Assembly (NCBI RefSeq): GCF_000243315.1
Contig: NZ_JH597761.1
Span: forward strand, 1,154,913 to 1,191,216
Length of the DNA: 36,304 bases
Source: Metallosphaera yellowstonensis MK1
Lineage (GTDB): Archaea; Thermoproteota; Thermoprotei_A; Sulfolobales; Sulfolobaceae
Direction of reading: 5' to 3'
The position numbers and the translations under genes are program-made. Positions 1,644-31,427 of this stretch are shown piece by piece; the stretch's first letter is position 1; each line of letters begins with the position of its first letter. Under the pieces are notes generated by a model. It was not told the DNA's origin. It did no database searches and saw only the letters and a list, made by a program, of their open reading frames with translations.

Positions 1644-2018
1644 ATGAAAGTTAAGTTAGACCACTGTGGATGTCCAGTCCAGAGGAGATATGCCTCGGAC
1701 TTCCTCATGACCAGACTTTACCAACTTCGCAGTGAGAGGTGCTTTAAGAAGTTGGGAAGGAGAGAGTTGGAGGGGGGTAGGTGGTTTGAGCTGTACTCGA
1801 ACAGCACCGAGCTCAGGTACCGGAGTAGCGAGTGTCCACTCCTCATAATAGCCCTGGAGGTCCTGTTGGAGGCCTCAGAGGACGGGAGGAGGACACGTGA
1901 GGAGTTGTTGGCTTCCCTTAAGTCGATCAAGGGACTTCAGATGAACGAGCTTCTAGAGAAGGTAGTTGAGAACTTCCACGAGGTGATCTCAGTTGAAACG
2001 AGTGGCGTACATCATTGA
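1644..2018 (+). CDS. Hypothetical protein, 124 aa
   Basis: I do not recognise this protein. It is a soluble-looking, Arg/Glu/Leu-rich alpha-helical chain with a Cys pair near the start (DHCGCPVQRR), a central segment with another Cys (SSECPLLIIALEVLLEASED) and a helical C-terminal half. A TATA-like TTTTATATTA at about 1608-1617 lies some 30 bp before the ATG, which supports transcription with little or no leader. The gene stands alone, 15 bp before the left end of the IS607 element, and could be a remnant or an accessory gene disturbed by that insertion. Codon use is like its neighbours. Confidence 0.5.
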   Translation: MKVKLDHCGCPVQRRYASDFLMTRLYQLRSERCFKKLGRRELEGGRWFELYSNSTELRYRSSECPLLIIALEVLLEASEDGRRTREELLASLKSIKGLQMNELLEKVVENFHEVISVETSGVHH

Positions 2019-2060
2019 GTCGAACTTGAGCTGAATCCTTTCTCACGTTAATAGAAATCT

Positions 2061-2070
2061 TTTTATATTT
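2061..2070 (+). promoter_or_regulatory. TATA-type promoter of IS607 tnpA
   Basis: TTTTATATTT is centred about 26 bp before the GTG at 2091, so the message would be leaderless and the GTG is the likely start. The same sequence is kept in the miniature element at 22878-22888. Confidence 0.5.
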
Positions 2071-2090
2071 ATTTATTATCAACCAATTTT

Positions 2091-2732
2091 GTGGAGAGAC
2101 TACTGAGACCTAAGGAGGCTTGCCAACTGCTCAGCATTTCATACTCAACACTCCTACGGTGGATCAGAGAAGGGAAGATAAGGGCAGTAACGACTGAAGG
2201 AGGGAAGTATAGGATACCTTACAGCGAGATTAAGAAGTACTTAGAGAAGAGGGAAGAGACGAGGGCTGTAATTTATGCAAGGGTGTCCTCGGCTGACCGG
2301 AGGGAAGACTTGGAGAGGCAAGTGAACTACCTAACAAATTACGCAACGGCGAAGGGTTACAAGGTGGTTGAAGTACTGAAAGATATAGCTAGCGGGTTGA
2401 ACACGCAAAGGAAAGGACTGTTAAGGCTATTCAAACTTGTTGAGGGAAGGAGTGTAGACGTCGTATTAATAACCTACCAAGATAGGTTAACAAGGTTCGG
2501 TTTCGAGTACATTGAGGAGTTCTTCTCAACCGTGGGAGTTAAGATTGAAGTAGTTTTCGGTGAGGAGCCCAAAGATGACGCACGAGAGCTAGTTGAGGAC
2601 TTAATCTCAATCATTACCTCATTCGCAGGGAAAATTTACGGAATGAGGAGTCACAAGAAGACAGTCCTGGTTCAGGGTGTAAAGAAGTTGATAGGTGAGT
2701 TGAGTGGAGAGGACAGTGAAGTTAAGGGTTAG
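2091..2732 (+). CDS. tnpA: IS607-family serine recombinase TnpA
   Basis: This 213-residue recombinase catalyses IS607 transposition through a serine-linked intermediate. Residues about 5-50 form a MerR-type helix-turn-helix (PKEACQLLSISYSTLLRWIREGKI and a RIPYSEIKKYL wing). The resolvase catalytic domain follows, with IYARVSS (Ser66 the likely nucleophile), D-R-E-D-L-E-R-Q-V about 12 residues on, and DRLTRFG near residue 145. Length is normal for the family. The GTG start is supported by a TATA box 26 bp upstream. The tnpB start lies inside the last 29 bp of this gene. It looks intact, and a decayed relative lies at 31621-32080. Confidence 0.93.
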   Translation: MERLLRPKEACQLLSISYSTLLRWIREGKIRAVTTEGGKYRIPYSEIKKYLEKREETRAVIYARVSSADRREDLERQVNYLTNYATAKGYKVVEVLKDIASGLNTQRKGLLRLFKLVEGRSVDVVLITYQDRLTRFGFEYIEEFFSTVGVKIEVVFGEEPKDDARELVEDLISIITSFAGKIYGMRSHKKTVLVQGVKKLIGELSGEDSEVKG

Positions 2733-3933
2733 GGTTGACCATAAAACTTACTCAGCACTTAAGGAAGTTGAGGAGGAGTACAGAGAGGTTCTAGAGGACG
2801 CAATAAATTATGCGTTGTCAAACGAGACTACCTCCTTCATCAGGATTAAAGCTGGGATTTACAAGACTGAGAGGGAGAAGTACAAGGACTTACCATCCCA
2901 TTTCATTTACACCGCCTGTGAGGACGCAAGCGAGAGGTTGGACAGCTTTGAGAAGTTGAAGAAGAGAGGTAGGGCCTACACTGAGAAACCGTCTGTGAGG
3001 AGAGTTACTATTCACCTGGATGATCATCTGTGGAAGTTCAGCCTCGACACGATTTCAATTTCCACAAAGAAGGGTAGGGTTTTCATTTCACCAACCTTCC
3101 CTAAGATCTTCTGGAGATATTATAACAAGGGCTGGTCGATTGCCAGTGAGGCCAGGTTTAGGCTGATGAAGGGGAACGTGGTGGAGTTCTACGTCATTTT
3201 TAAGAAGGATGTTAAACCTTATGAGCCTAAGGGTTTCATCCCAGTCGACCTCAACGAGGACTCGGTCTCCGTATTAGTTCATGGAAAACCGACGCTTTTA
3301 GAGACTAACACTAAGAAAATTACTCTGGGCTATGAGTATAGGAGGAAGTTGACAACTACTGGTAAGCCAACTAAGGATAGGGAAGTGAGGGGGAAGTTAA
3401 AGAGGCTGAGGGAGAGGGATAAGAAAGTAGACGTTAGGAGGAAATTAGCCAAGCTGATCGTCATTGAAGCTTTTGAAAGTAGGAGTGCCATTGTCTTGGA
3501 GGACTTGCCAGGGAGAACTCCGGAGCATATGATAAAGGACGTGAAGGATAAACAACTTAGGTTGAGGATTTACCGTTCAGCATTTTCCTCAATGAAGAAC
3601 GCTATCATAGAGAAGGCTAGGGAGTTCGGTGTTCCAGTAATTTTGGTTAACCCATCTTATACTTCTTCAACTTGTCCAATCCACGGGACGAAGATCGTTT
3701 ACCGACCCGATGGGGGCGATGCCCCGAGGGTTGGTGTTTGTGGGAAGGGGAAGGAGAGGTGGCATAGGGACGTGGTTGCACTGTACAATCTGAAGAAAAG
3801 GGCTGGAGATGTGAGCCCCGTGCCGTTGGGCTCGAAGGAGTCCCATGACCCACCTACCTTAAGTGGGTGGCTGAGGGCTAAGTCCCTGCACTCGATCATG
3901 AATGAACATAAAATGATTGAAATGAAAGTATAG
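2704..3933 (+). CDS. tnpB: IS607-associated TnpB RNA-guided nuclease
   Basis: TnpB is the RuvC-like, RNA-guided DNA endonuclease of IS200/605/607 elements and an ancestor of Cas12. The 409-residue chain keeps the RuvC triad: D182 in PVDLNED, E266 in IVLEDL and D356 in WHRDVVALYN. The zinc-knuckle region is atypical: TCPIHG (C324, H327) then VCGKGKERWH (C346, H354), so two of the four usual cysteines are replaced by His or another residue. That pattern seems tolerated in archaeal TnpBs as I recall them. The N-terminal wedge/recognition part (1-175) is full length. The start GTG overlaps tnpA. The 3' end of the gene and the bases to 3943 probably also encode the guide-RNA scaffold. Confidence 0.92.
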   Translation: MERTVKLRVRVDHKTYSALKEVEEEYREVLEDAINYALSNETTSFIRIKAGIYKTEREKYKDLPSHFIYTACEDASERLDSFEKLKKRGRAYTEKPSVRRVTIHLDDHLWKFSLDTISISTKKGRVFISPTFPKIFWRYYNKGWSIASEARFRLMKGNVVEFYVIFKKDVKPYEPKGFIPVDLNEDSVSVLVHGKPTLLETNTKKITLGYEYRRKLTTTGKPTKDREVRGKLKRLRERDKKVDVRRKLAKLIVIEAFESRSAIVLEDLPGRTPEHMIKDVKDKQLRLRIYRSAFSSMKNAIIEKAREFGVPVILVNPSYTSSTCPIHGTKIVYRPDGGDAPRVGVCGKGKERWHRDVVALYNLKKRAGDVSPVPLGSKESHDPPTLSGWLRAKSLHSIMNEHKMIEMKV

Positions 3934-3943
3934 GGACAAACGG
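3808..3943 (+). ncRNA. Putative omega RNA scaffold at the IS607 right end
   Basis: In TnpB elements the guide-RNA scaffold is made from the 3' end of tnpB and the right end of the transposon, with the guide read from the flank. This stretch has a stem GAGCCC/GGGCTC (about 3812-3832) and a second hairpin CCCAC/GTGGG near 3849-3867. It is conserved outside any reading frame in the miniature element at 22969-23110, which suggests selection or function at the nucleotide level. The guide here would begin at 3944. No expression evidence is available. Confidence 0.5.
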
Positions 3944-3961
3944 TCATATATCTTAGGCCAG

Positions 3962-4237
3962 ATGATAGTGCCACAGATAGAGGAGGGCAGACACGGCGTT
4001 GAGGTCAAAGCGATGTTCTTCATTCACGATAATGTCTACATACCCATGAGGGACAACCCTCTGGGGGATAGGCTCGATAGGTTGGCCAAGGAGAAGGGGA
4101 TTTACCTCCAAGCGTGTGACCAATGCGTATACATGAGGAACCTGGCCGATAAATTGATATCCTCCTGTAAGATAGGCTGTTTCCCAGACTTTTACGGCGC
4201 CGTCCTCGACCAGGTGGACTTGATTATAACAATTTAA
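3962..4237 (+). CDS. DsrE-family sulfur-relay protein, probably 5'-truncated
   Basis: DsrE-family proteins carry sulfane sulfur on a cysteine in the cytoplasm. This 91-residue frame has the family-like core: VKAMFFIHDNVYIP, LGDRLDRLAKEKGIYL, then QACDQC (C52, C55) and SCKIGCFPDFY (C69, C73). The coding frame stays open upstream of the ATG (SYILGQ reads as family-like sequence) right up to the IS607 end at 3943. About 20 N-terminal residues, including the first beta strand, are therefore probably missing. It may be non-functional or a shortened product. It begins sulfur module A, but a promoter for the beta-propeller gene lies between them. Confidence 0.7.
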   Translation: MIVPQIEEGRHGVEVKAMFFIHDNVYIPMRDNPLGDRLDRLAKEKGIYLQACDQCVYMRNLADKLISSCKIGCFPDFYGAVLDQVDLIITI

Positions 4238-4320: not shown

Positions 4321-5547
4321 ATGAACTACAAACTCCTTATTATAGCAGGGGTAGTTATCATACTCCTTATAGGAGTAGGAGCTGCCCTTCTCATAATGAG
4401 AAGCCCATCACCTTCGAGCACCACTACGACTCCTAATTCAACCACTACCACAACTCCAAGCAACTCCACTTCCTCTACCACTTCCTCTAATTTCTATTTC
4501 ATCGCCTTTACTCAAAAGGGGTTGGCACAGGTCCTGAACCCGTTCAGTCAATCACAGAGTTTCCTCGGGTTCACTAGGTACACTAACATCTCAACTAATC
4601 TCCCTCAACAGGTGTACTACTGGGAGGAGATTCCTGCAGGAGTAATGCCCAAGTACCTCTTCGTGCCTGTGAACAACGGGACTGTGTTCGTCCTTGACCC
4701 ACAGAGCTTTAAGGTAGTAGAGACCCTTTACGTTGGCTCCTCAGAGGGTCAGATAGGGTTCATAGGTGCATCCTTCTCTCCCAACGGTGAATATGTAGCT
4801 TTGGCTGACGGACCCTCTGGAATACTGGAAGTCATCAACGTGCAGACCTTACAGACAGTATGGAAGGTGACATTCCTTAGGGCTAACGGGGCCACGGCCT
4901 ATCCCTGTGACGTTAGGTGGACTCCGGACGGAAGTGAGCTGATAGTGCCGATGAGGTTTAATGAGACCGTGGATATCATTAACGCCAGCAACGGACAGGT
5001 GGTTAAGTCCCTCCTAACTCTCTCTCCTAACGAACAGGTATTACCACAGCCCTATATGGTTTCTCTAAACTTCCAGGGAACTATGGTCGCAGTTGAGTAC
5101 GCAGGAAATAACTCAGTTGGATTCTACTCCTTGCCCAACCTACAGTTGATGGGCATGGTTAAGATGCCAGGAAAGTTGGTACCACAGAGGGGAGTCTTCA
5201 CTCCTGATGGACAATACTACCTTGAGGCTCCTATCAACAATGACACTGTAGTGGTCATCTCCACCTCCAACTTCCAGGTCGTAAAGGAGATCCAGTTGCC
5301 TCAAATCAACTCGCCGGGTCTTGCAGACATAGAGATAGCCCCTGGGGATCAATACGCATATGTGGTTATCCACGGAAACGTCAACACTGGAGGGATGATA
5401 GTGCTGATATCTCTCTCCTCACTGTCCGTCGCCTATGAGTTACCTCTCACCACCGCTCCGGCCTTCGTGATACCAGTCAACCTGGGGATGGCCAATTACC
5501 TCCTCAGCCAAGTGATGTCTCCCCCAGTTACAGGACTCCACTGTTAA
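4321..5547 (+). CDS. Membrane-anchored extracytoplasmic beta-propeller (YVTN-like)
   Basis: This 408-residue protein is likely tethered outside the cell. Residues 5-27 are an uncleaved signal anchor ([20 protein letters not shown]), followed by a Thr/Ser/Pro-rich linker (29-58) that is probably glycosylated. The rest consists of blades of the YVTN/cytochrome-d1-like kind, with repeated patterns such as [40 protein letters not shown] and [18 protein letters not shown]. No heme motif (CxxCH) is present. Only two cysteines are seen, one in AYPCDVRW and one as the last residue (GLHC). A TATA-like TTTTTAAAA at 4282-4290 precedes it with a leader of roughly 10 nt. It is followed at once by a polytopic membrane protein and DoxD, so an electron-transfer or substrate-binding role in sulfur oxidation is plausible but unproven. 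Confidence 0.8.
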
Positions 5548-5557
5548 GGTGGGCTTA

Positions 5558-6484
5558 TTGAAAGCTGTAAATCCTTTTTTCACAGTTTTCTCCTTTTTCA
5601 ATGCAACCGTATTTCTACCAATAGTTGTGAACGGAGTTAGGGTTCTCGGGTTATGGTATTCCCCACTAGCTGACACTGGACAGGTCACGTTTGAGATACC
5701 GTTCCTTATCTTCGTATTGGTATATGCTCTGGTGTCTGGAGTGGTCGGGTTTCTCGTGTTCAGGATGAAGAAGGGGAGGTTCATCCTAGTTCACGGGCCC
5801 ATGAGGCTGAGAACAGTGGTCAGGGCAACCTTGAGGGATGGGTTCGGAAGGGCACTGGTAATGACGTTTTTCCCCTCCTATTTCTTAAGCTACCTGGTGG
5901 TCTCTGGCCTTCTCCTTATACCAAACGTCAACGTCAGTCCCTACTTTCACGACCTCACGACCATAACTTATCAGGCAGTTGGCTTCCCAGTGTTTGGGGG
6001 ACTCCTAGTGTTCTCTCCGGTGCAGTACCTAATAGGCCTGGCCAACGACGTCGTCTTGACGCTCTCACTGATACTCAGCTACTACGTAACTTCCCTACTT
6101 TACGTCTCCTCTAACGCTCTCAAATGGGCGGTTCCTAAATCTTTGAGGTTGAGCACCTATAACACCGCAGCCGGGTTCTTAACTGCCTCCATACCATCTT
6201 TGGGCACCATAGCAGGGGTCTGTTGTCTGACCCCCACCGCAGTGAACTCCTTGCTCTACCTACTCTCGGGTGCATATCCGGCAGTGACGAAGGGAATAAC
6301 CTGGAAGTACGGAACTTTCATGGCCGGTGCTTGGACGGGAGGTATCCTGCAGGCATTGATCCTGTTTTCCCCTTCGTTGCTCGGTCTGGTGATGTTGGGA
6401 TTAGGGGTTTGGCAGGTCAGCGTGATCTCCTCCCTACTGGTTAGGAGGGCCGTCTCAATTGAAAACAGTAAACCTATCCAATAA
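5558..6484 (+). CDS. Polytopic membrane protein of sulfur module A
   Basis: I do not recognise the family. About 308 residues form roughly seven or eight hydrophobic helices with short loops. Notable features are a paired cysteine in [23 protein letters not shown], a Gly-rich segment after it ([21 protein letters not shown]) and a basic cytoplasmic loop ([27 protein letters not shown]). The frame opens with GTG at 5549, but the TTG at 5558 has a ribosome-binding sequence AAGGTGG about 6 nt ahead and is preferred. The gene starts 10 bp after the beta-propeller gene and overlaps doxD by 26 bp, so the three are surely co-transcribed. A membrane partner of the propeller or of DoxD is a reasonable guess. 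Confidence 0.75.
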
Positions 6485-6998
6485 GGCCTGGCTCACCCTA
6501 GTAAGATTGGCAGTAGCAACTATATGGGCCTACGCGGGAATATTCGAGAAGTTACTCAACCCTGGGTTCCTGAACCCAGCCTCGACCTCCTACGTGGGGA
6601 TAACCGTCCAATATCTGGCCGAGGGCTCGCCCATAAGAGGTTTCCTCTACGCAGTCGTGTTCCCCCACGTCCTACTTGTGGGGGAGTTAGTCATGGTTGG
6701 TGAGGTTTCCTTTGCAATCCTCACCTTCCTGGGGTTAGCTAACAGGTTGAGCGGGACTGTGGCGTTCTACACGAACCTGATCTACTTCCTCTCTGCCTAT
6801 TGGACGGGAACCGAGGAATATGGGATTAATCTACTACTCATGATATTCGACGCTTTCCTAGTCATTAACGGGCCTGGCCCCCTCTCGCTGGACTGGTTGA
6901 TCTCCAGGAAGAGCAGGATCATGAACATGTCCCTCCTATGGTTCTCTATCGGAACGATCCTATACCTGTCCGTGATCCTTTTTTTATTATTTTACTAG
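6459..6998 (+). CDS. doxD: DoxD-like thiosulfate:quinone oxidoreductase subunit
   Basis: DoxD is the membrane subunit of thiosulfate:quinone oxidoreductase, which passes electrons from thiosulfate to caldariellaquinone while forming tetrathionate. The 179-residue protein has a family-like first helix ([24 protein letters not shown]), a conserved-looking second part ([30 protein letters not shown]), then [35 protein letters not shown], and a last hydrophobic helix. Length fits a stand-alone DoxD. No DoxA gene is seen nearby, so the partner is either elsewhere or replaced by the propeller/polytopic proteins upstream. The start is TTG at 6459 with GGAGG 11 nt before it, inside the preceding gene. 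The 3' end is T-rich (CTTTTTTTATTATTTTA), a possible terminator. Confidence 0.8.
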
Positions 6999-7020
6999 AT
7001 TTACACTCAGTTTAAAAAAC

Positions 7021-7074
7021 TATTTAAAAATGGGGATAACTTAAAAGCAGGTTCCCCAAGTATTCTTTGGTGAG
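7021..7074 (+). promoter_or_regulatory. Promoter and ribosome-binding site of the tusA operon
   Basis: Two TATA-like boxes, TATTTAAAA at 7021-7029 and CTTAAAAG at 7040-7047, precede a GGTGAG Shine-Dalgarno sequence at 7069-7074, 3 nt before the tusA ATG at 7078. The first box would give a leader of about 27 nt that includes the Shine-Dalgarno. A separate promoter here would let tusA and the genes after it be expressed independently of doxD. Confidence 0.45.
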
Positions 7075-7077
7075 ACG

Positions 7078-7329
7078 ATGGAAGACGTATTGAAAATTAA
7101 GGAGCCAGACGACACATTAGACGTAGTGGGGGAGTCGTGCCCTGTCCCTGAGATGATGGCCAGTAAGAAGCTAAAGAAGATGAAGATCGGTCAGATCCTA
7201 GAGGTCCTGACGGACCACCAGCCCGCGGTGGACGTAACCCTTCCCTCCCTTTGTAAGAACCTAGGGTACCCTTACATGATACTGAAGGACGGTGACCTAT
7301 TCAGGTTCAGAATACTTAAGGTGAGGTGA
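7078..7329 (+). CDS. tusA: TusA-family sulfur carrier
   Basis: TusA proteins bind sulfane sulfur on a single cysteine and hand it to partner enzymes. This 83-residue protein has the defining motif GESCPVPEM (Cys21 in a C-P-x-P loop) after the first strand LDVVG, followed by the usual helix [15 protein letters not shown] and the second alpha/beta unit ([20 protein letters not shown]). A second Cys lies in SLCKN. It heads a tight gene row with the YeeE/YedE transporter 7 bp downstream. TusA plus YeeE is a known pairing in thiosulfate uptake, where TusA accepts sulfur from the transporter. Confidence 0.92.
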
Positions 7330-7336
7330 GCTAGTC

Positions 7337-8578
7337 TTGGCCACGCCCTCAATGATCTTACAACCAGTTTTTTCCGAGACTTGGGCCGTCATATTTGGCC
7401 TCTTCGGATTGAGCGGATTTATCCTAGGTTGGGTGGCCCAGAGAGGGAATTACTGCTTCATAAACGCTATGACTTCAATATTTACCACTAAAAGTCTTGA
7501 GAGGTTTGGTGCCCTACTCCTCCTCTTCGGACTGACCGCCCTGGGCACCGGGATCCTCACCGCATTCGGTGTAATACCTGCAGTCGACCAATACTTTTAC
7601 AACTACTTCGCTGGTTGGTACATCCTTGTGGGTTCCTTCATCTTCGGATTTGGGGCCGCGATGGCAGGGGGTTGTAACCTATCCATGTTATACAGGGCCA
7701 GCAGCGGATACGTTCAGAATTGGATAGAGCTCTTCGGTATGATGATAGGGACTTACGTTTTTGCGGTGGCCATATGGCCCTTCCAATCCTACACGATGCA
7801 GGCCGGAATACTCTCAACTACTAGTGGGGGATATGTTGAGTACCTCCCTTACTTGTTGTTCCACTCCACTTCCAGCCTGGCTGTGTATGTTACAACCTTC
7901 ATTGTTGCCCTTCCACTAATATTGTTGGGCGTGTACTTCCAATGGAGGACTAGGAACAGGTGGGGGAAGTCGCTGGGAGGTTCAACGCCAGGTCTTCCAG
8001 GGATAAGGGCCTTGGGATCCCCAGGTATCCCAACACCCGCCGAGACCTCCTCTGGATTGAGACTGAAACAAGACGTCAAGGACATGCTACTGCTGAGGAA
8101 GCCCTATGGTACGAATCTATCCACGGTCATCTTAGCCTTGGATATGATATTCGTGTTCTTAGTGGGGGCCGGGTACACTTTCAATTACCTGGTAATAACT
8201 TCATCTGACGGAGGGAGGTTCTTCGAGTACATCCTCATGCCCTTGGGTATAAACCTGTTCACCAACACGCCGTGGTTCAACGACTCCCTCCCCATAGTCG
8301 ATCCCAGCACACTGATGGTAGTGATGCTATGTGTGGGTGCCTTCTCAGCATCCTATCTTAGCGGAGACTTTAAGATCAGGATACCGAAGGACAAGAAGAG
8401 GTTAGTCATAGGCTTCTTGGGAGGTATGCTTGTGGGAATAGGCGTGAGGGTGGCTCTTGGTTGTAACGTTGGATTGATGTGGACGAACTTTGGACAACTG
8501 GGTTATGACGGCTACATATTCCTCCTAGGCATGTTAGGAGGGGTTTACCTAGCCGTGAAGGTTCAGGAGAGGTTGTGA
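7337..8578 (+). CDS. YeeE/YedE (TsuA-type) thiosulfate transporter
   Basis: YeeE/YedE proteins import thiosulfate or related sulfane-sulfur compounds; in the studied TsuA, conserved cysteines inside the membrane guide the ion. The 413-residue chain has two inverted-looking halves of several helices. Cys40 lies in QRGNYCFINAM, Cys113 in MAGGCNLSMLYR and Cys376 in VALGCNVGLMWTN, matching the family Cys motifs. A Gly/Pro-rich cytoplasmic loop (about 205-250, GGSTPGLPG, SPGIPTPAETSSG) joins the halves. The TTG at 7337 has GAGGTGAG 6 nt upstream and is preferred over the ATG at 7352. The gene sits directly behind tusA and 3 bp before the next gene. Confidence 0.88.
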   Translation: MATPSMILQPVFSETWAVIFGLFGLSGFILGWVAQRGNYCFINAMTSIFTTKSLERFGALLLLFGLTALGTGILTAFGVIPAVDQYFYNYFAGWYILVGSFIFGFGAAMAGGCNLSMLYRASSGYVQNWIELFGMMIGTYVFAVAIWPFQSYTMQAGILSTTSGGYVEYLPYLLFHSTSSLAVYVTTFIVALPLILLGVYFQWRTRNRWGKSLGGSTPGLPGIRALGSPGIPTPAETSSGLRLKQDVKDMLLLRKPYGTNLSTVILALDMIFVFLVGAGYTFNYLVITSSDGGRFFEYILMPLGINLFTNTPWFNDSLPIVDPSTLMVVMLCVGAFSASYLSGDFKIRIPKDKKRLVIGFLGGMLVGIGVRVALGCNVGLMWTNFGQLGYDGYIFLLGMLGGVYLAVKVQERL

Positions 8579-8581
8579 ACC

Positions 8582-8881
8582 ATGGAGGAGATGGAAAAGG
8601 CTAAAACCAAGGCAAAGTCGTATCCTGTAAGGAAAGTCATTGCCCCCCTCATACTGTCCCTATTCGCCATTGTCTGGTTTCAGTTCAGTAAGGTCTACCT
8701 CACGGGGGCCGACAACATTGCCTTGAGGGAGGCAAACTTCGCCATATACGTCACTCCCGAGCAACTTCAAGGATACCTGGAGGCCACCGCGTGGACGTGT
8801 TACATCGTAGTTTACGTTGGTCTAATCTTCTTCTGGTACGGCCTCGTGAGGTATGTGGAATCTAAGGAGGTGTCCAAATGA
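8582..8881 (+). CDS. Small two-helix membrane protein
   Basis: This 99-residue protein is of unknown function. After a Lys-rich cytoplasmic N-terminus, hydrophobic helices lie at about 20-41 (VIAPLILSLFAIVWFQFSKVYL) and 71-90 (WTCYIVVYVGLIFFWYGLV). The loop between them contains YVTPEQLQGYLEATAW and would face outside if the positive-inside rule holds. It starts 3 bp after the YeeE/YedE gene and overlaps the next gene by 4 bp (ATGA), so it belongs to the sulfur operon. It may be a small accessory subunit of the transporter. Confidence 0.7.
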   Translation: MEEMEKAKTKAKSYPVRKVIAPLILSLFAIVWFQFSKVYLTGADNIALREANFAIYVTPEQLQGYLEATAWTCYIVVYVGLIFFWYGLVRYVESKEVSK

Positions 8882-9240
8882 CAGAGATGTATTCGTTCAT
8901 GATGATCTCAGGGCAGGAGGAGAAGCTCTTCATGGGAGTCATCACGGCCATAGGATATGCATCTGGTGGGAATAAGGTGTACATGTTTTTCACAATGGAC
9001 GCCCTGAGGGCACTCACTGCCGAGTCGGAGAAAATTAGCCTGAACGGTACCAAGAACTTGAAATACTATCTAGATAACCTAATGGACCTCGCAGGAGATG
9101 ATCTCGAGATAACGGCCTGTGAGTTTGGAATGAGGGTGAAGAACTTCAAGGAGGAGGACTTCGTCTATAAGGTAAAGGTAGGTGGAGTCTCAGAGTTCGC
9201 CCTGAAGAGTTCCCAGTCCAAGGAAACCCTGGTGTTTTGA
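8878..9240 (+). CDS. DsrE2-like sulfur-carrier protein
   Basis: DsrE/DsrE2 proteins bind sulfane sulfur and interact with TusA. The 120-residue chain opens with a strand and SGQEEKLFMGVITAIGYASGG, continues with a second strand VYMFFTMDALRAL and has the key segment LEITACEFGMRVKNF, in which Cys81 occupies the place of the active cysteine of DsrE2-type proteins. No N-terminal membrane helices are present, unlike some DsrE2 proteins. It overlaps the preceding gene by 4 bp, and its stop codon overlaps the start of the next gene by one base (TGATG), so translation is probably coupled. Confidence 0.8.
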   Translation: MTEMYSFMMISGQEEKLFMGVITAIGYASGGNKVYMFFTMDALRALTAESEKISLNGTKNLKYYLDNLMDLAGDDLEITACEFGMRVKNFKEEDFVYKVKVGGVSEFALKSSQSKETLVF

Positions 9241-9848
9241 TGAGTCTAAAGGTATTTGTTTTGGGCCCCTTGAACACTAATTCTTACCTCCTCTGGGATA
9301 GGGGAGAGGCGGTCGTAATAGATCCTGGAGGCGAGCCAGGGGAGCTCATATCCTTCATTAAGTCCTATAACCTGAACCTTAAGTATGTGATCTCGACCCA
9401 CGGCCACTTCGATCATGTCCTTGGGGTAAAGGAGTTGGTCAGGATCACCGGTGCTAAGTTTTACCTTAATTTTAAGGACGTGGACCTCATGCCACTCTTC
9501 TATGATTGGAGAGAGAAGCCACCCGCCCCTCATGACGATTTGCGGGACGGTCAGGAATTTAGATTCGGCTCGCAAATACTCCAGGCCGTGTCAACGCCTG
9601 GCCATACCATGGGGAGTACGTCCCTTCTCTGGGTCGGAAAAATGTTTACAGGTGACACGCTGTTCAAAGGAACGGTGGGAAGATATGACCTGGGAGGTGA
9701 TAGGGAAGTTCTCAGGGAGACGTTGGAGAAACTAAAGGGCATGGACATCAACGAGATCTACCCAGGTCACGGGGATACTACCAGTCTAAAGGAGGAACTT
9801 AAGAGCAACCCGTTCTTAAACGGAGTTGTGGGACCTGACGACTGGTGA
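9240..9848 (+). CDS. Metallo-beta-lactamase-fold hydrolase (glyoxalase II-like)
   Basis: This 202-residue enzyme has the full metal-binding set of the fold: THGHFDH (H54, H56, D58, H59), PGHT (H122), GDTLF (D139) and PGHG (H177). It resembles glyoxalase II-type and persulfide-dioxygenase-type proteins. The two cannot be separated with certainty from motifs alone, but its place at the end of a TusA/DsrE operon makes a sulfur substrate such as glutathione-free persulfide or a thioester attractive. The ATG at 9240 overlaps the stop of the previous gene; an in-frame TTG at 9237 is less likely. It is the last gene of module A. Confidence 0.85.
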   Translation: MSLKVFVLGPLNTNSYLLWDRGEAVVIDPGGEPGELISFIKSYNLNLKYVISTHGHFDHVLGVKELVRITGAKFYLNFKDVDLMPLFYDWREKPPAPHDDLRDGQEFRFGSQILQAVSTPGHTMGSTSLLWVGKMFTGDTLFKGTVGRYDLGGDREVLRETLEKLKGMDINEIYPGHGDTTSLKEELKSNPFLNGVVGPDDW

Positions 9849-23149: not shown

Positions 23150-24052
23150 TTAGGGTCTAAAGTTCTTCCCTATCACCTTGAGCATTCCCATCATCACGCC
23201 TAGTCCCCTCTGTATGTCTGGATCCTTCATTAGGGTTATTAACTTCCCCAGAGTTACATTCTCGGGTTTTGATAGGACCTTCAAGGCCTCCTCCCCGCTC
23301 AGGACCTCTACCAGTTCACTTAAGGGGGGTCTCATGACGGAGTTCAGGAATTCTAAACCCTTGGGCAGAAAGTCGAATATGAGGGACAGGGTAGTTCCTA
23401 GGTTGGTTATGGCGTCGTCGTTGAGGGCATCCCTCAGGGACTTGAGTGCGTAAGACATGTTCACTAGGACATCTAAGGTACCGCTGTCCTTGAGCTCCAA
23501 TACCCTCTTGATGACCTCGTTAAGTTCTGGAGCTTTAGCTAATATCGCCTTTAGACCCTCTGCTGATCTCGGATTTATCCCGCTCAGGACATCCATCAAT
23601 TGTCCTATGGTGTTCCCCAGGTTGGTTATGGCGTCGTCGTTGAGGGCATCCCTCAGGGACTTGAGTGCGTAAGACATGTTCACTAGGACATCTAAGGTAC
23701 CGCTGTCCTTGAGGGCCTTTAGCCTCATCACCGCATCCTTTAACGCGTCAGCGTTGGCCAGAATGTCCTCAATTTCCTTTTGTCTCGTCTTCATGGAACC
23801 TGCTATCACCATCATGTTGGATAACATATCCGCAATGCTCTGTATGGCGTCGTCGTTGAGGGCATCCCTCAGGGACTTTGCTCCATAGCTGAAGTTTATG
23901 AGTACATCGAGTGCACCGGAATCCTTGAGTTGTGCTACCTTGCCTAGCACTTCGTTGAGGGTAGAGACGTGATCCAGAAAGTTTGCTAATTCCTCCATCT
24001 TCTTCTCGTCTAGCTTAGCCATGACCTTCTCCAAGTTGACCTCGGTAGCCAT
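23150..24052 (-). CDS. DUF1641 protein with three internal repeats
   Basis: This 300-residue helical protein ends in a DUF1641-like segment (LMKDPDIQRGLGVMMGMLKV). Three internal repeats of about 42 residues lie at 42-83, 114-155 and 188-229, each with LKDSGTLDVLVNMSYALKSL followed by RDALNDDAI; the first repeat is somewhat diverged. DUF1641 proteins are recurrently encoded beside SQR or formate dehydrogenase-type genes and lack a known activity. Here it is the last gene of the tusA-sqr-dsrE operon, 4 bp after dsrE. It has no cysteines and no signal peptide, so a cytoplasmic or membrane-peripheral scaffold role is plausible. Confidence 0.85.
   Translation of the reverse strand: MATEVNLEKVMAKLDEKKMEELANFLDHVSTLNEVLGKVAQLKDSGALDVLINFSYGAKSLRDALNDDAIQSIADMLSNMMVIAGSMKTRQKEIEDILANADALKDAVMRLKALKDSGTLDVLVNMSYALKSLRDALNDDAITNLGNTIGQLMDVLSGINPRSAEGLKAILAKAPELNEVIKRVLELKDSGTLDVLVNMSYALKSLRDALNDDAITNLGTTLSLIFDFLPKGLEFLNSVMRPPLSELVEVLSGEEALKVLSKPENVTLGKLITLMKDPDIQRGLGVMMGMLKVIGKNFRP
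23400..23494. repeat. 95-bp direct repeat inside the DUF1641 gene, copy 1
   Basis: This stretch is identical, as far as I can read, to 23619-23713. It encodes the third protein repeat (read on the minus strand). Identity at silent positions shows a recent duplication or gene conversion and not only protein-level selection. Confidence 0.8.
23619..23713. repeat. 95-bp direct repeat inside the DUF1641 gene, copy 2
   Basis: The partner of 23400-23494, encoding the second protein repeat. A third, more diverged unit lies near 23846-23925. It is not a CRISPR array, since the repeats are in frame and protein-coding. Confidence 0.8.
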
Positions 24053-24056
24053 AGTA

Positions 24057-24434
24057 TCACCATACTGAAACTAGTTGACCCCCTTCGACCTCCATGGAGA
24101 AGGAGGTTATCCCCACAATGTCGTCTACCAGTTCGCTGTAGCTTTCCTTATCCAGTTTATGTACTTTGCTGGCATAGGAGCAGGCCAGGATCTTCAGTTT
24201 TCCAGATTTCTTAGCCCTCCTGAAGTGCTGAAACACGTCCTCCCTGCTCTCCTTAATTACCTTTGAAGTGTCGTCTGTCACCCTCAGGTCCGGAGTCTTG
24301 AGGAACGCCTTGACGCCGTCCATGGTCGCAAACAACACCACTTCGTTGTCTAGGGAGACGGCTATGGCTGAATGCATGGCAGCATAAGCTACCCTGCTCA
24401 ACTCGTTGGAACCTAGGATTATACCAACCTTCAT
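24057..24434 (-). CDS. DsrE2-like sulfur-carrier protein (module B)
   Basis: This 125-residue cytoplasmic protein of the DsrE/DsrE2 type begins with a strand and helix MKVGIILGSNELSRVAYAAM, followed by NEVVLFATMDGVKAFL. The key segment LKILACSYASKVHKLDKESY has Cys85 in the position of the active cysteine. It lies between sqr (10 bp upstream) and the DUF1641 gene, so it probably receives or passes on sulfane sulfur released by SQR. It shares the TusA-plus-DsrE arrangement with module A, but the two DsrE proteins are clearly different sequences. Confidence 0.82.
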   Translation of the reverse strand: MKVGIILGSNELSRVAYAAMHSAIAVSLDNEVVLFATMDGVKAFLKTPDLRVTDDTSKVIKESREDVFQHFRRAKKSGKLKILACSYASKVHKLDKESYSELVDDIVGITSFSMEVEGGQLVSVW

Positions 24435-24444
24435 TTAAATCCCT

Positions 24445-25599
24445 TTAAACTATAGCCTTAGCTGTCACTGTCCAGTACAACTTGTTATACATTAGTTTGC
24501 CCCACCAGTGGACGTAGGACGGGGGTGGTGGAACAGGCGGGTTAGCGTAGTTGAACCTAATGTAGGTTGCAGAGTCTACGCCAGTAGCTATGTAACAGAA
24601 GACTGAACCGTCGTAGGTCTTCTTCAAGCCTGTGCCCCTTATCTCATTGGCCACGTTGTTAGCAATGATGTAGGACTCGAAGTCCGCAGTCGAACCTGCC
24701 TTAGAGATTGGGATATCTGTGGTGTCTCCTATTACGAAGACGTTGGAGTGATCCTTCATCCTCAGGGTGAACTTATCTGTCGGGACCCAATTCCTCTTAT
24801 CGCCTATGCCTGAGTCCCCTATCACTTTTGCACCTACATGAGGAGGAACCCCTATGGCCAGATCGAACTTGACCTTCTCTCCTTCCTGGGATTCCATGAC
24901 CTTGTTCTTCGGATCGACGTTAGTTACGTTGAAGGGAGAAATGACCTTTATTCCCCTCTCTTGGAAGATCTTTATCATTACGTCGTTTGTGGTCTTTATT
25001 CCAAATATTCCGTTGATAGGATACGTGTAGACTATCTCCGTCTTATCCCTGAGACCCTTCTTCCTTAACATGTCGTCAAGCATCAACGTGGCTTCCATTG
25101 GCGCAACGGGGCACTTGTGAGGTAATTTAGCCACGTTTATTACTACTGTACCTCCGGAGAATTGATCTAAGGCCTCTCTAAGCTTCAGGGCACTATCGAA
25201 GTCCCAAGGGGAGTAAACAGCGTCCTTATAACCTGGTACTTCTTCCCATCTCAGATGGGATCCTGTGGCTATGATCAGGTAGTCGTAAGTGTGGGACACA
25301 CCGTCTGCAGTGACAACGGTATGATTTGCAGGGTCGATCTTGGTTACCTCTCCCTTCTGGCCGTGTAGAAACCTGACCCTATGATCCAGGATATCCCTTT
25401 CGTTCCTCACTAACTCCACTGGGTCCTGAACGTTAAACGGAACTAGTAGTTGGCCCGGCTGATAGACGTGCTTGTCACTCTTATCTAAAACTACTACTTC
25501 CGCCTCTCCCTTCTCCAACTCCTCTGGTATAGTCCTCGCTATCCTGTTTGCCACTATGGTTCCTGCAATCCCTCCTCCTACAACTATAACCCTCTTCAT
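24445..25599 (-). CDS. sqr: Sulfide:quinone oxidoreductase
   Basis: SQR is a membrane-bound flavoprotein that oxidises sulfide to sulfane sulfur or polysulfide and reduces quinone. The 384-residue protein has the FAD-binding [15 protein letters not shown] (5-20), the NAD(P)/FAD-type ATGSHLRW (111-118), GDTTDIP (291-297), and an amphipathic Trp-rich C-terminal end ([15 protein letters not shown]) that would attach it to the membrane. Cysteines are found at 163 ([13 protein letters not shown]) and 335 ([10 protein letters not shown]), the pair expected to hold the sulfur bridge. The third cysteine found near position 129 in several SQRs is missing here ([10 protein letters not shown]). It overlaps the upstream tusA gene by 4 bp (ATGA). 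Confidence 0.93.
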
Positions 25600-27060: not shown

Positions 27061-27663
27061 ATGGAAACAGGAAAGAGTTTACCAAGGGGCCAAAAGGTAG
27101 TTAAGAGGTTCATTTACTACGCCGCGTTGGGCGTGCCAGAGATCGATGAGGAAAGGTACAGGTTGACCGTCTCAGGACTTGTGGAGAAACCACAAGAATA
27201 TTCCTACCAGGAGTTGATGAGGATGATCGACGTAAACTATGTGAGAGATTTCCACTGCGTTACTGGGTGGAGTGTGTTGGGAGTTAGCTGGGAGGGAGTG
27301 TCGCTCAGGAACTTATTACAGAGAAGTGTGCCTAAAAAGGAGGCCAAGTGGGTGATGTTTTACTCCCTTGATGGCTACACAACTGCAGTCCCGTTAGAGG
27401 ACGCCATGTCGGAGGACGCCGTTGTGGTCCTGAAAATGAACGGTAAGCCCTTAACGAGGGAGCAGGGCTTTCCAGCTAGACCCTTTATACCCTACCTATA
27501 CGCATGGAAGAGTGCCAAATGGCTCGCCTCCGTGGAACTACTTCCGGATTACGTTGACGGCTACTGGGAGGAGAGAGGTTATCACGAGAGAGGTAACGTG
27601 TGGGAGGAGGAGAGATTCAAGGGACAGGGAGGAAAACATCTACCCAGGAGGCCTCTCCTCTGA
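27061..27663 (+). CDS. Sulfite-oxidase-family molybdopterin oxidoreductase
   Basis: This protein has the molybdopterin-binding fold of sulfite oxidase and MsrP/YedY. Residues about 31-58 ([20 protein letters not shown]) match the typical start of the domain. Cys66 in [11 protein letters not shown] is the expected Mo-thiolate ligand. Later family-type segments are [30 protein letters not shown] and [20 protein letters not shown]. At 200 residues it is the compact cofactor domain only, without dimerisation or heme domains and without a Tat signal, so it should be cytoplasmic. Its setting among sulfur genes makes sulfite or a sulfoxide plausible as substrate. A good TATA box precedes it. Confidence 0.88.
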
Positions 27664-30602: not shown

Positions 30603-31427
30603 ATGAAAGCCCCTCACCTTATATCTGCAGAGACCCTCTTGGAAAACCTAAGGGATTACACCATCGTGGAGATTGCATATGATCCCTCCTCATATAAGGA
30701 ATGGCACCTACCGAGAGCAGTCCTCCTTCATTGGTGGAATTTCAGACATCCAGTAGTGAGGGATTTTGCCGATAGGGAAACCCTGGGAAGGAATTTAGGA
30801 AAGGTGGGCATATCAAGGGAGGACAGGTTAGTTCTCTACAGCGACTTCGGTAACAGATACGCGTACTATGCCCTATGGCTCCTCCTTAGCTACGGTCACA
30901 AGGAGGTTTACGTTTTAGATGGAGGGAAGGTAGCGTGGGAGGTCAAGGGTCTTCCCATGGAGACTGAGAGCTTCAGATTACCTGAGTCCAGGTACGATCC
31001 AGATCCCCCAGATTGGAGCAACAGGATAACGGTGTGGGAAATACTCACCCGATTGAGGACCGGAGACCTTCCTCAACTTATCGACGCTAGGTATCGAGAA
31101 GAATTCGAGGGGAAATTGAGCACACCGCCTGAGCACCCCCACGAGGAAGCCCAGACGAGAGGTCACATCCCGGGAGCTATTAACGTACCCTGGAATTCTT
31201 TTCTCAATGACGACACTGAAGAGTTGCGTCCCCCCGAGGAAATTCTATCTCACCTTAAAGAGAAGGGAATAAGGAATGAGGAGACAGTAGTTTACTGTAG
31301 GACTGGAGCTAGGGCCTCCTTGGTGTGGTACTATCTCAAATATGTCCTGGGCTTCAAGAGAGTGAGACTTTACGACGGGTCCTGGTCTGAGTGGGGTAAC
31401 ATGGTTGGGATGCCTGTGGAGTTTTGA
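30603..31427 (+). CDS. Tandem-rhodanese thiosulfate sulfurtransferase
   Basis: Rhodaneses move sulfane sulfur from thiosulfate to an acceptor. This 274-residue protein has two rhodanese domains. The C-terminal one has the active loop VVYCRTGARAS (C232 in C-R-T-G-A-R), typical of thiosulfate-type enzymes, and the family-like segment TRGHIPGAINVPW. In the N-terminal domain the equivalent loop is LVLYSDFGNRYAYYA: the Cys is replaced (Ser80/Asp81), so that domain is inactive and structural, as in classical two-domain rhodaneses. It is alone in its unit, with a TATA-like box about 26 bp upstream. It fits the sulfur-relay theme of the window. Confidence 0.92.
   Translation: MKAPHLISAETLLENLRDYTIVEIAYDPSSYKEWHLPRAVLLHWWNFRHPVVRDFADRETLGRNLGKVGISREDRLVLYSDFGNRYAYYALWLLLSYGHKEVYVLDGGKVAWEVKGLPMETESFRLPESRYDPDPPDWSNRITVWEILTRLRTGDLPQLIDARYREEFEGKLSTPPEHPHEEAQTRGHIPGAINVPWNSFLNDDTEELRPPEEILSHLKEKGIRNEETVVYCRTGARASLVWYYLKYVLGFKRVRLYDGSWSEWGNMVGMPVEF

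Follow-up and report, generated by a model that had tools for sequence, protein, structure and literature searches.

In bacteria, three cysteines of YeeE relay thiosulfate to a cysteine of the TusA-type protein YeeD (PMC11073785). For the Sulfolobales, a 2021 review (PMC8551704) counted the entry of sulfur into the cytoplasm among the open questions, and a 2024 comparative study (PMC11323534) pointed from transcriptomes to a YeeE importer without giving its partners. On sulfur, the YeeE-type gene was up 211-fold in A. brierleyi and 4-fold in S. ohwakuensis; S. tokodaii and S. solfataricus were stated to lack YeeE. The sulfur island of Metallosphaera cuprina contains genes for thiosulfate:quinone oxidoreductase (TQO), a sulfate-transporter-domain protein, the DsrE5 prototype Mcup_1706, SQR and TusA, and DsrE3A/TusA thiosulfonate transfer has been established in this organism (Liu et al., 2014, PMC4175335). 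Here we describe a gene cluster in a stretch of 36,304 nucleotides from Metallosphaera yellowstonensis MK1 (contig NZ_JH597761.1; the whole stretch is called the window, and its 2.8 Mb source genome G000), in which a YeeE importer is encoded together with a β-propeller, a polytopic membrane protein and a DoxD-like protein.

The cluster is a strictly co-inherited gene set of thermoacidophilic archaea that live on sulfur. We rate it a variant of thiosulfate import by YeeE and TusA, extended by the propeller and the polytopic protein, and a real part of archaeal sulfur import; it may be the missing device that hands outside sulfur to the importer. An earlier reading of the window without database searches (the sequence-only reading) had grouped these genes into one sulfur module and proposed a TQO-like mechanism for it. 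That reading is partly supported, in that the grouping was right and the mechanism is the weaker one.

Gene layout and co-inheritance

All eight open reading frames (ORFs) of the sequence-only reading were found (coordinates here and below are window positions unless a locus or contig is named):

4321..5547 (+), extracytoplasmic 7-bladed propeller with an N-terminal transmembrane (TM) helix; invariant C196, H351 and C-terminal H407-C408
5549..6484 (+), polytopic protein, eight predicted TM helices, N and C termini inside; invariant C225-C226, predicted on the outer side
6459..6998 (+), DoxD-like protein (PF04173), from a clade without DoxA; cysteine-free, with an additional helix at the C-terminus
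7078..7329 (+), TusA-family sulfur carrier; CPVPEM as CPxP motif, Pfam 67 bits; precedes yeeE in relatives and in G041
7337..8578 (+), YeeE/YedE (Sulf_transp), Pfam 177 bits; C40, C113, C376
8582..8881 (+), two-helix membrane protein; follows yeeE, in G041 too; one conserved cysteine, C73 (21/22)
8878..9240 (+), DsrE5-type DsrE protein, 120 aa, Pfam DsrE family; single invariant cysteine C81 (22/22)
9237..9848 (+), MBL-fold hydrolase; Lactamase_B 101 bits

Neighbouring genes overlap or nearly touch, except for a gap of 79 nt between the DoxD-like gene and tusA. Pfam backed the DoxD, TusA, YeeE/YedE, DsrE (27-30 bits) and MBL assignments, and gave no family for the polytopic and two-helix proteins. 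The view of the cluster as one packed module holds for the grouping but not for the architecture, which comprises at least two units. Unit A consists of a Cys-rich protein (family F8), a SaoD-like DsrE, the propeller, the polytopic protein and the DoxD-like protein; unit B consists of TusA, YeeE, the two-helix protein and DsrE5. Only the window's genus and G019 have the two head-to-tail. In other genomes they lie 3.9-6.3 kb apart, usually in opposite orientation, and a TusA-fusion gene stands in between or close by; in the draft genome G025 they are on different contigs. Even in the window the two units are likely to be transcribed separately, since an AT-rich box lies about 30 nt ahead of the propeller start and boxes of this kind also occur in the 79-nt gap before tusA.

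We surveyed 229 genomes of the class, 31 of them Sulfolobaceae, plus 398 genomes drawn evenly from the phylum. The propeller and the polytopic protein occurred in an identical set of 24 class genomes, as neighbours in every one, and the phylum sample held no further carriers of the pair. TusA, YeeE/YedE, the two-helix protein and DsrE accompanied the pair in 24/24 carriers, normally within 6.3 kb. Among the Sulfolobaceae, the 23 genomes with the polytopic gene were also those with a full-length propeller and a module YeeE of near full length, and the other 8 had neither an intact YeeE nor the pair; for independent genomes, which these are not, so exact an agreement would arise by chance once in 7.9 million (31 choose 8). 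A DoxD-family gene directly followed the polytopic gene in all 23 Sulfolobaceae carriers, with an overlap in nearly all. The grouping of propeller, polytopic protein and DoxD is not due to chance, and the sequence-only reading, which had tied the pair to DoxD and sulfur genes, was borne out across the class: the pair stood with sulfur genes in 24/24 genomes and with DoxD in 23/24, and does not regularly occur without them.

Genera g6, g7 and g9 each hold both carriers and non-carriers (the latter being G017, G018 and G022), which indicates that loss (or gain) of the units was joint and happened several times. One case of such loss is G018: unit A is gone, yeeE is cut to its last 25-26 residues, and the two-helix and DsrE5 genes remain. 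A scan of named genomes found three relatives only, and a search of plasmids and viral contigs found no relative. A 46-aa match that the polytopic profile gave in G130 (E 5e-4) was dismissed as chance; it sits among CO-dehydrogenase and hydrogenase-type genes. In G026 an additional polytopic gene is truncated and comes with a full DoxD-like gene but without a propeller (L114, 8267-9326).

One carrier, G041, belongs to another family of the class (0.6 Mb assembled, 71% complete). Its propeller is 46% identical and ends in PPVTGLHC, and its polytopic protein is 42% identical; TusA, YeeE (65%), the two-helix protein and DsrE5 lie 0.9 kb on, convergent with the propeller pair. Neither DoxD nor DoxA was detected anywhere in this 71% complete assembly. 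G041 thus keeps the pair and unit B without DoxD, so that the minimal set is the propeller, the polytopic protein and unit B, and the pair is tied to the importer rather than to DoxD. At the place that DoxD holds in Sulfolobaceae, G041 has a 312-aa membrane protein without a Pfam match on the opposite strand (L140, 9196-10134, -).

In G012, G013, G014 and G016 the regions upstream of the propeller gene and of tusA were near-identical over about 88 nt, with alignment scores of 160-174 against a control maximum of 26 (354 comparisons); in this one lineage units A and B carry the same promoter. Similarity was 27-38 in eight other genomes, and the remainder, the window's genus included, showed no excess. 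The upstream copies form inverted repeats of 134 nt (G012) and 126 nt (G014). Their arms (L100, 6325-6458 and 8281-8414; L102, 4665-4790 and 8070-8195; also in L101 and L104) hold the promoter and the 3' end of the saoD-like gene and flank a multi-gene segment. This segment has opposite orientations in G012/G013 and G014/G016, and the arms are more alike within than between genomes, which suggests homogenisation within genomes by inversion or gene conversion.

Co-inheritance, side-by-side placement and the promoter shared in four genomes make the link of the propeller pair to sulfur import a strong one. They also bear on the idea that the two proteins work in something else, such as protein maturation or S-layer attachment, and have no more than a genetic linkage with the sulfur genes. 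Archaeal YVTN propellers are often surface proteins, as would fit such a role. However, the pair co-occurs with the YeeE unit in 24/24 genomes despite rearrangements, the two were lost jointly and share a promoter, and 0 genomes of the class have the pair but no YeeE unit; we therefore regard an unrelated role as improbable.

The propeller and the polytopic protein

The propeller model (AF2, pLDDT 75.8) is a 7-bladed propeller of YVTN type that has one helix at its N-terminus, a linker rich in Ser and Thr, and a tail that is disordered (residues 400-408, pLDDT <50); its top Foldseek match, and closest fold, was 1l0q (E 3e-18). C196, H351, H407 and C408 were invariant in 24/24 sequences including G041. 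Weak matches to hydrazine synthase beta, L-NosZ and cytochrome d1-type proteins, all below cut-offs, were set aside as general propeller similarity. Solved tetrathionate hydrolase (TetH) was neither among the 27 PDB sequences at E<=1 nor among the 50 best folds listed, in a library not confirmed to include a TetH entry.

The polytopic protein has eight predicted TM helices with strongly positive loops inside. C225-C226, kept in 25/25 sequences, lies in an uncharged turn between TM5 and TM6 that by the positive-inside rule is predicted to face outside. Its sequence profile had no match in the PDB up to E 10, Pfam searches over 23 members gave chance matches only, and profile comparison showed it to be unrelated to the DoxD-like protein (0.4%). 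The polytopic protein is without any known family, and the propeller is without an assigned role. Our literature search, including one by locus tag in M. sedula, found no description of the pair, and it goes unmentioned in the available parts of the reviews and of the 2024 comparative study (PMC11323534).

The DoxD-like protein and thiosulfate:quinone oxidoreductase

The DoxD-like protein belongs to Pfam DoxD (PF04173, 168.8 bits, cut-off 22.7), and profile-profile comparison supported its homology to DoxD with 98% probability; R16, S42, E82, W115, E120 and D145 (window numbering) are common to unit-A and DoxA-linked DoxD. The sequence-only reading had proposed an alternative complex for thiosulfate oxidation and import, with the propeller and the polytopic protein in DoxA's stead. 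Spelled out as a TQO, the DoxD-like protein would reduce quinone, these two proteins would oxidise thiosulfate, with tetrathionate formed outside or in the membrane, and YeeE would import the rest. The obligate adjacency in 23/23 Sulfolobaceae speaks for such an enzyme, as do G013 and G023, both rated 100% complete, in which DoxA is missing and the unit-A DoxD is the sole DoxD.

Against it, unit-A proteins scored 30-33 bits (window 30.3) with the TQO large-subunit equivalog, whose cut-off is 300 bits; a DoxD2-like protein scored 138.7, and the canonical DoxD of the window's genome 340.6. In a tree of 48 sequences the 23 unit-A proteins separated from 25 DoxA-linked DoxD with support 100/100 and very long branches. 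The cysteine of GSTCEDEWQ was present in 25/25 DoxA-linked DoxD (the distant DoxD2-like proteins included) and in 0/23 unit-A proteins. DoxA adjoined the unit-A gene in 0/23 loci and occurred only beside other DoxD; 21/23 carriers have it elsewhere, beside its own DoxD, and so already own DoxDA. The G041 set, moreover, is without DoxD. We thus consider the TQO mechanism unlikely, and a weaker reading than a thiol relay. The claim that DoxA is missing holds at the locus but not for the genome, where a canonical DoxD and DoxA lie about 45 kb downstream (intact DoxDA at C10:1206882-1207843). The same genome has further doxD/doxA copies that are degenerate, being truncated or broken by stops (G000:C10:423-1188 and G000:C13:1332-1643).

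As G013 and G023 have no DoxA, unit A does not need it. What stands of the earlier proposal is a conserved sulfur module of propeller, polytopic and DoxD-like proteins, tied to YeeE/TusA and independent of DoxA. In Sulfolobaceae, a gene annotated as 'doxD' where doxA is lacking should therefore not be taken for a TQO.

The importer unit

YeeE is a member of the Sulf_transp family and has an adjacent TusA-type CPxP partner. C40, C113 and C376 were found in 23/23 sequences including G041, their equivalence to the relay triad being judged by motif only. The NCBIfam TsuA equivalog scores were below cut-off (74.3 vs. 400 and 70.5 vs. 645). The DsrE protein had been called DsrE2; its NCBIfam DsrE2 score is 14.6 against a cut-off of 210. 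An 84% identical copy in G006, inferred to be M. cuprina, lies six genes from DoxA, as Mcup_1706 does from Mcup_1712, and this matching gene count indicates that the window protein is DsrE5, the orthologue of the prototype, and not DsrE2. Several TusA-type proteins were seen around the module: a 310-340 aa protein with a central TusA domain and unassigned N- and C-terminal parts, near the module in nearly all loci (e.g., L091, 96-1115, -); in genera other than that of the window, a small TusA with a GLCCSxP motif; and, in L111-L113, a TusA whose long C-terminal part is unassigned.

YeeE-like proteins can also act in sensing: SoxT1B, with essential cysteines, signals external sulfur to a repressor (PMC11582611), and by this precedent the propeller and the polytopic protein would be an outside receptor. 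No recognised regulator is present among the conserved genes (F8 is unassigned), and TusA together with DsrE5 argues for flux over signal; we give a sensor very little credence.

A possible extracytoplasmic thiol relay

SoxY has a swinging arm, with a cysteine near its flexible C-terminus. We tentatively read the locus as a two-unit membrane system that may take up sulfane sulfur, most likely thiosulfate, through an outer thiol relay into YeeE. It is possible, if rather doubtful, that the propeller and the 8-TM protein form a new extracytoplasmic sulfur-capture complex, in which the C-terminal Cys arm would load the outer Cys-Cys and so feed YeeE/TusA. The His-Cys of the propeller tail would capture thiosulfate, or a sulfane group from tetrathionate hydrolase or sulfur, as a thiol adduct, and the SoxY-like arm would pass it to C225-C226 of the polytopic protein. 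This pair would deliver sulfur into the YeeE cysteines, from which TusA and DsrE5 would collect it and carry it towards the Hdr-like complex. For the DoxD-like protein, restricted to Sulfolobaceae, we favour a role as the redox link of the relay, in which it would couple oxidation of the carrier thiol to quinone. We infer this role and the transfer steps outside the membrane from the linkage and the residues described above.

Several points weigh against the relay. The substrate and the transfer order are guesses. The polytopic model is weak around C225-C226 (pLDDT 40-55), so that the outer placement comes from the positive-inside rule, and it had no significant Foldseek match in the PDB (best E 1.4). 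The propeller and tusA promoters are not similar in the window's own genus (scores 15-19). G041 is incomplete, so that DoxD may sit in the missing part, and its contig is possibly mis-binned.

The module supplies the YeeE importer with two strictly co-inherited partners that bear invariant cysteines, predicted on the outer side, and makes the sulfur-entry question directly testable in genetically tractable Sulfolobales. If such a sulfur-capture complex exists, it would stand as an archaeal parallel to SoxYZ loading and as one explanation of how external sulfur gets into Sulfolobaceae.

Upstream and neighbouring genes

Two conserved genes upstream of the propeller, F8 and a transposon-split SaoD-like DsrE, had been missed by the earlier reading:

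1644..2018 (+), Cys-rich protein of ~120 aa, family F8, motif DxCGCxxxRxYASD; no Pfam/NCBIfam match; adjoins the SaoD-like gene in 19/24 loci; C8, C10 and C64 in 19/19
1993..2030 (+), 5' fragment of the SaoD-like DsrE gene, about 13 codons, severed by the transposon; TTG AAA CGA GTG GCG TAC ATC fits MKRVAYIxESNL of relatives
2031..3943 (+, ends approximate), IS607-type element inside the SaoD-like gene; serine recombinase 2091-2732 (Resolvase, 80.8 bits) and TnpB 2704-3933 (Cas12f1-like_TNB, 43.2 bits)
3944..4237 (+), remainder of the SaoD-like gene; ORF 3962-4237, 91 aa (relatives mostly 109-115 aa), with a possible restart at ATG 3962

The SaoD-like gene is uninterrupted in relatives. It was found in 21 loci, with C52, C55 and C73 in 21/21. 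It bears on an alternative in which the module handles soft metals or metalloids (Hg, As, Cu): thiophilic metals would bind to the vicinal cysteines in the membrane, to the C-terminal cysteine and to the SaoD-like DsrE, with the sulfur genes serving metal sulfide or thiol chemistry. The CC(L)TP motif of the polytopic protein resembles that of MerF-type mercury carriers. The SaoD-like protein is also related to the family of a selenocysteine-assisted organometal system (PMC13188914), but the intact G009 copy scored 122.1 bits with NCBIfam SaoD (NF040732), below the cut-off of 169. The polytopic profile, as noted, matched no PDB entry, no metal pump or regulator among the checked families is common to the loci, and the genes whose inheritance matches exactly are those for thiosulfate import and sulfur carriers. 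We regard metal handling as improbable.

The MBL hydrolase had been counted in the module. It belongs to the cluster in the window's genus (5/6 genomes) and not outside it, and is a genus-level passenger; its score with the hydroxyacylglutathione hydrolase GloB (TIGR03413) was 72.1 bits, below the cut-off of 200.8. Rightward the island runs on with a DUF1641 protein, a DsrE in the DsrE4 position beside SQR, and an SQR-like flavoprotein (23150-25599), then a molybdopterin oxidoreductase at 27061 and a double rhodanese at 30603.

Comparison with described systems

The M. cuprina island resembles the present locus in having the TQO, sulfate-transporter-domain, DsrE5, SQR and TusA genes in the same island; the propeller, the polytopic protein, the second DoxD and the SaoD-like DsrE go unmentioned in the available text of that paper (PMC4175335). 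With the DoxDA TQO of Acidianus ambivalens the module has in common a membrane protein of the DoxD superfamily, the shared R, S, E, W, E and D positions and a sulfur gene context. It differs in the separate 100/100 clade without DoxA or the invariant cysteine, in the extra C-terminal helix, and in encoding the DoxD-like protein behind a propeller and an 8-TM protein. Like YeeE (TsuA)/YeeD (TsuB) import and SoxT1A, it places a Sulf_transp three-cysteine relay protein beside a TusA-type CPxP protein, whereas its TsuA score is below cut-off and it adds the two-helix protein, DsrE5 and the extracytoplasmic propeller/polytopic unit. TetH is likewise an extracytoplasmic β-propeller of archaeal sulfur oxidation, but the present propeller is a YVTN 7-blade and not of the PQQ type; the tetrathionate hydrolase of M. 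cuprina, Mcup_1281, is encoded outside its sulfur island (PMC11818568). The SoxY arm of the Sox system offers a parallel to the proposed carrier site, a cysteine near a flexible C-terminus, although the two proteins are not homologous and the one described here is a membrane-anchored β-propeller ending in His-Cys.

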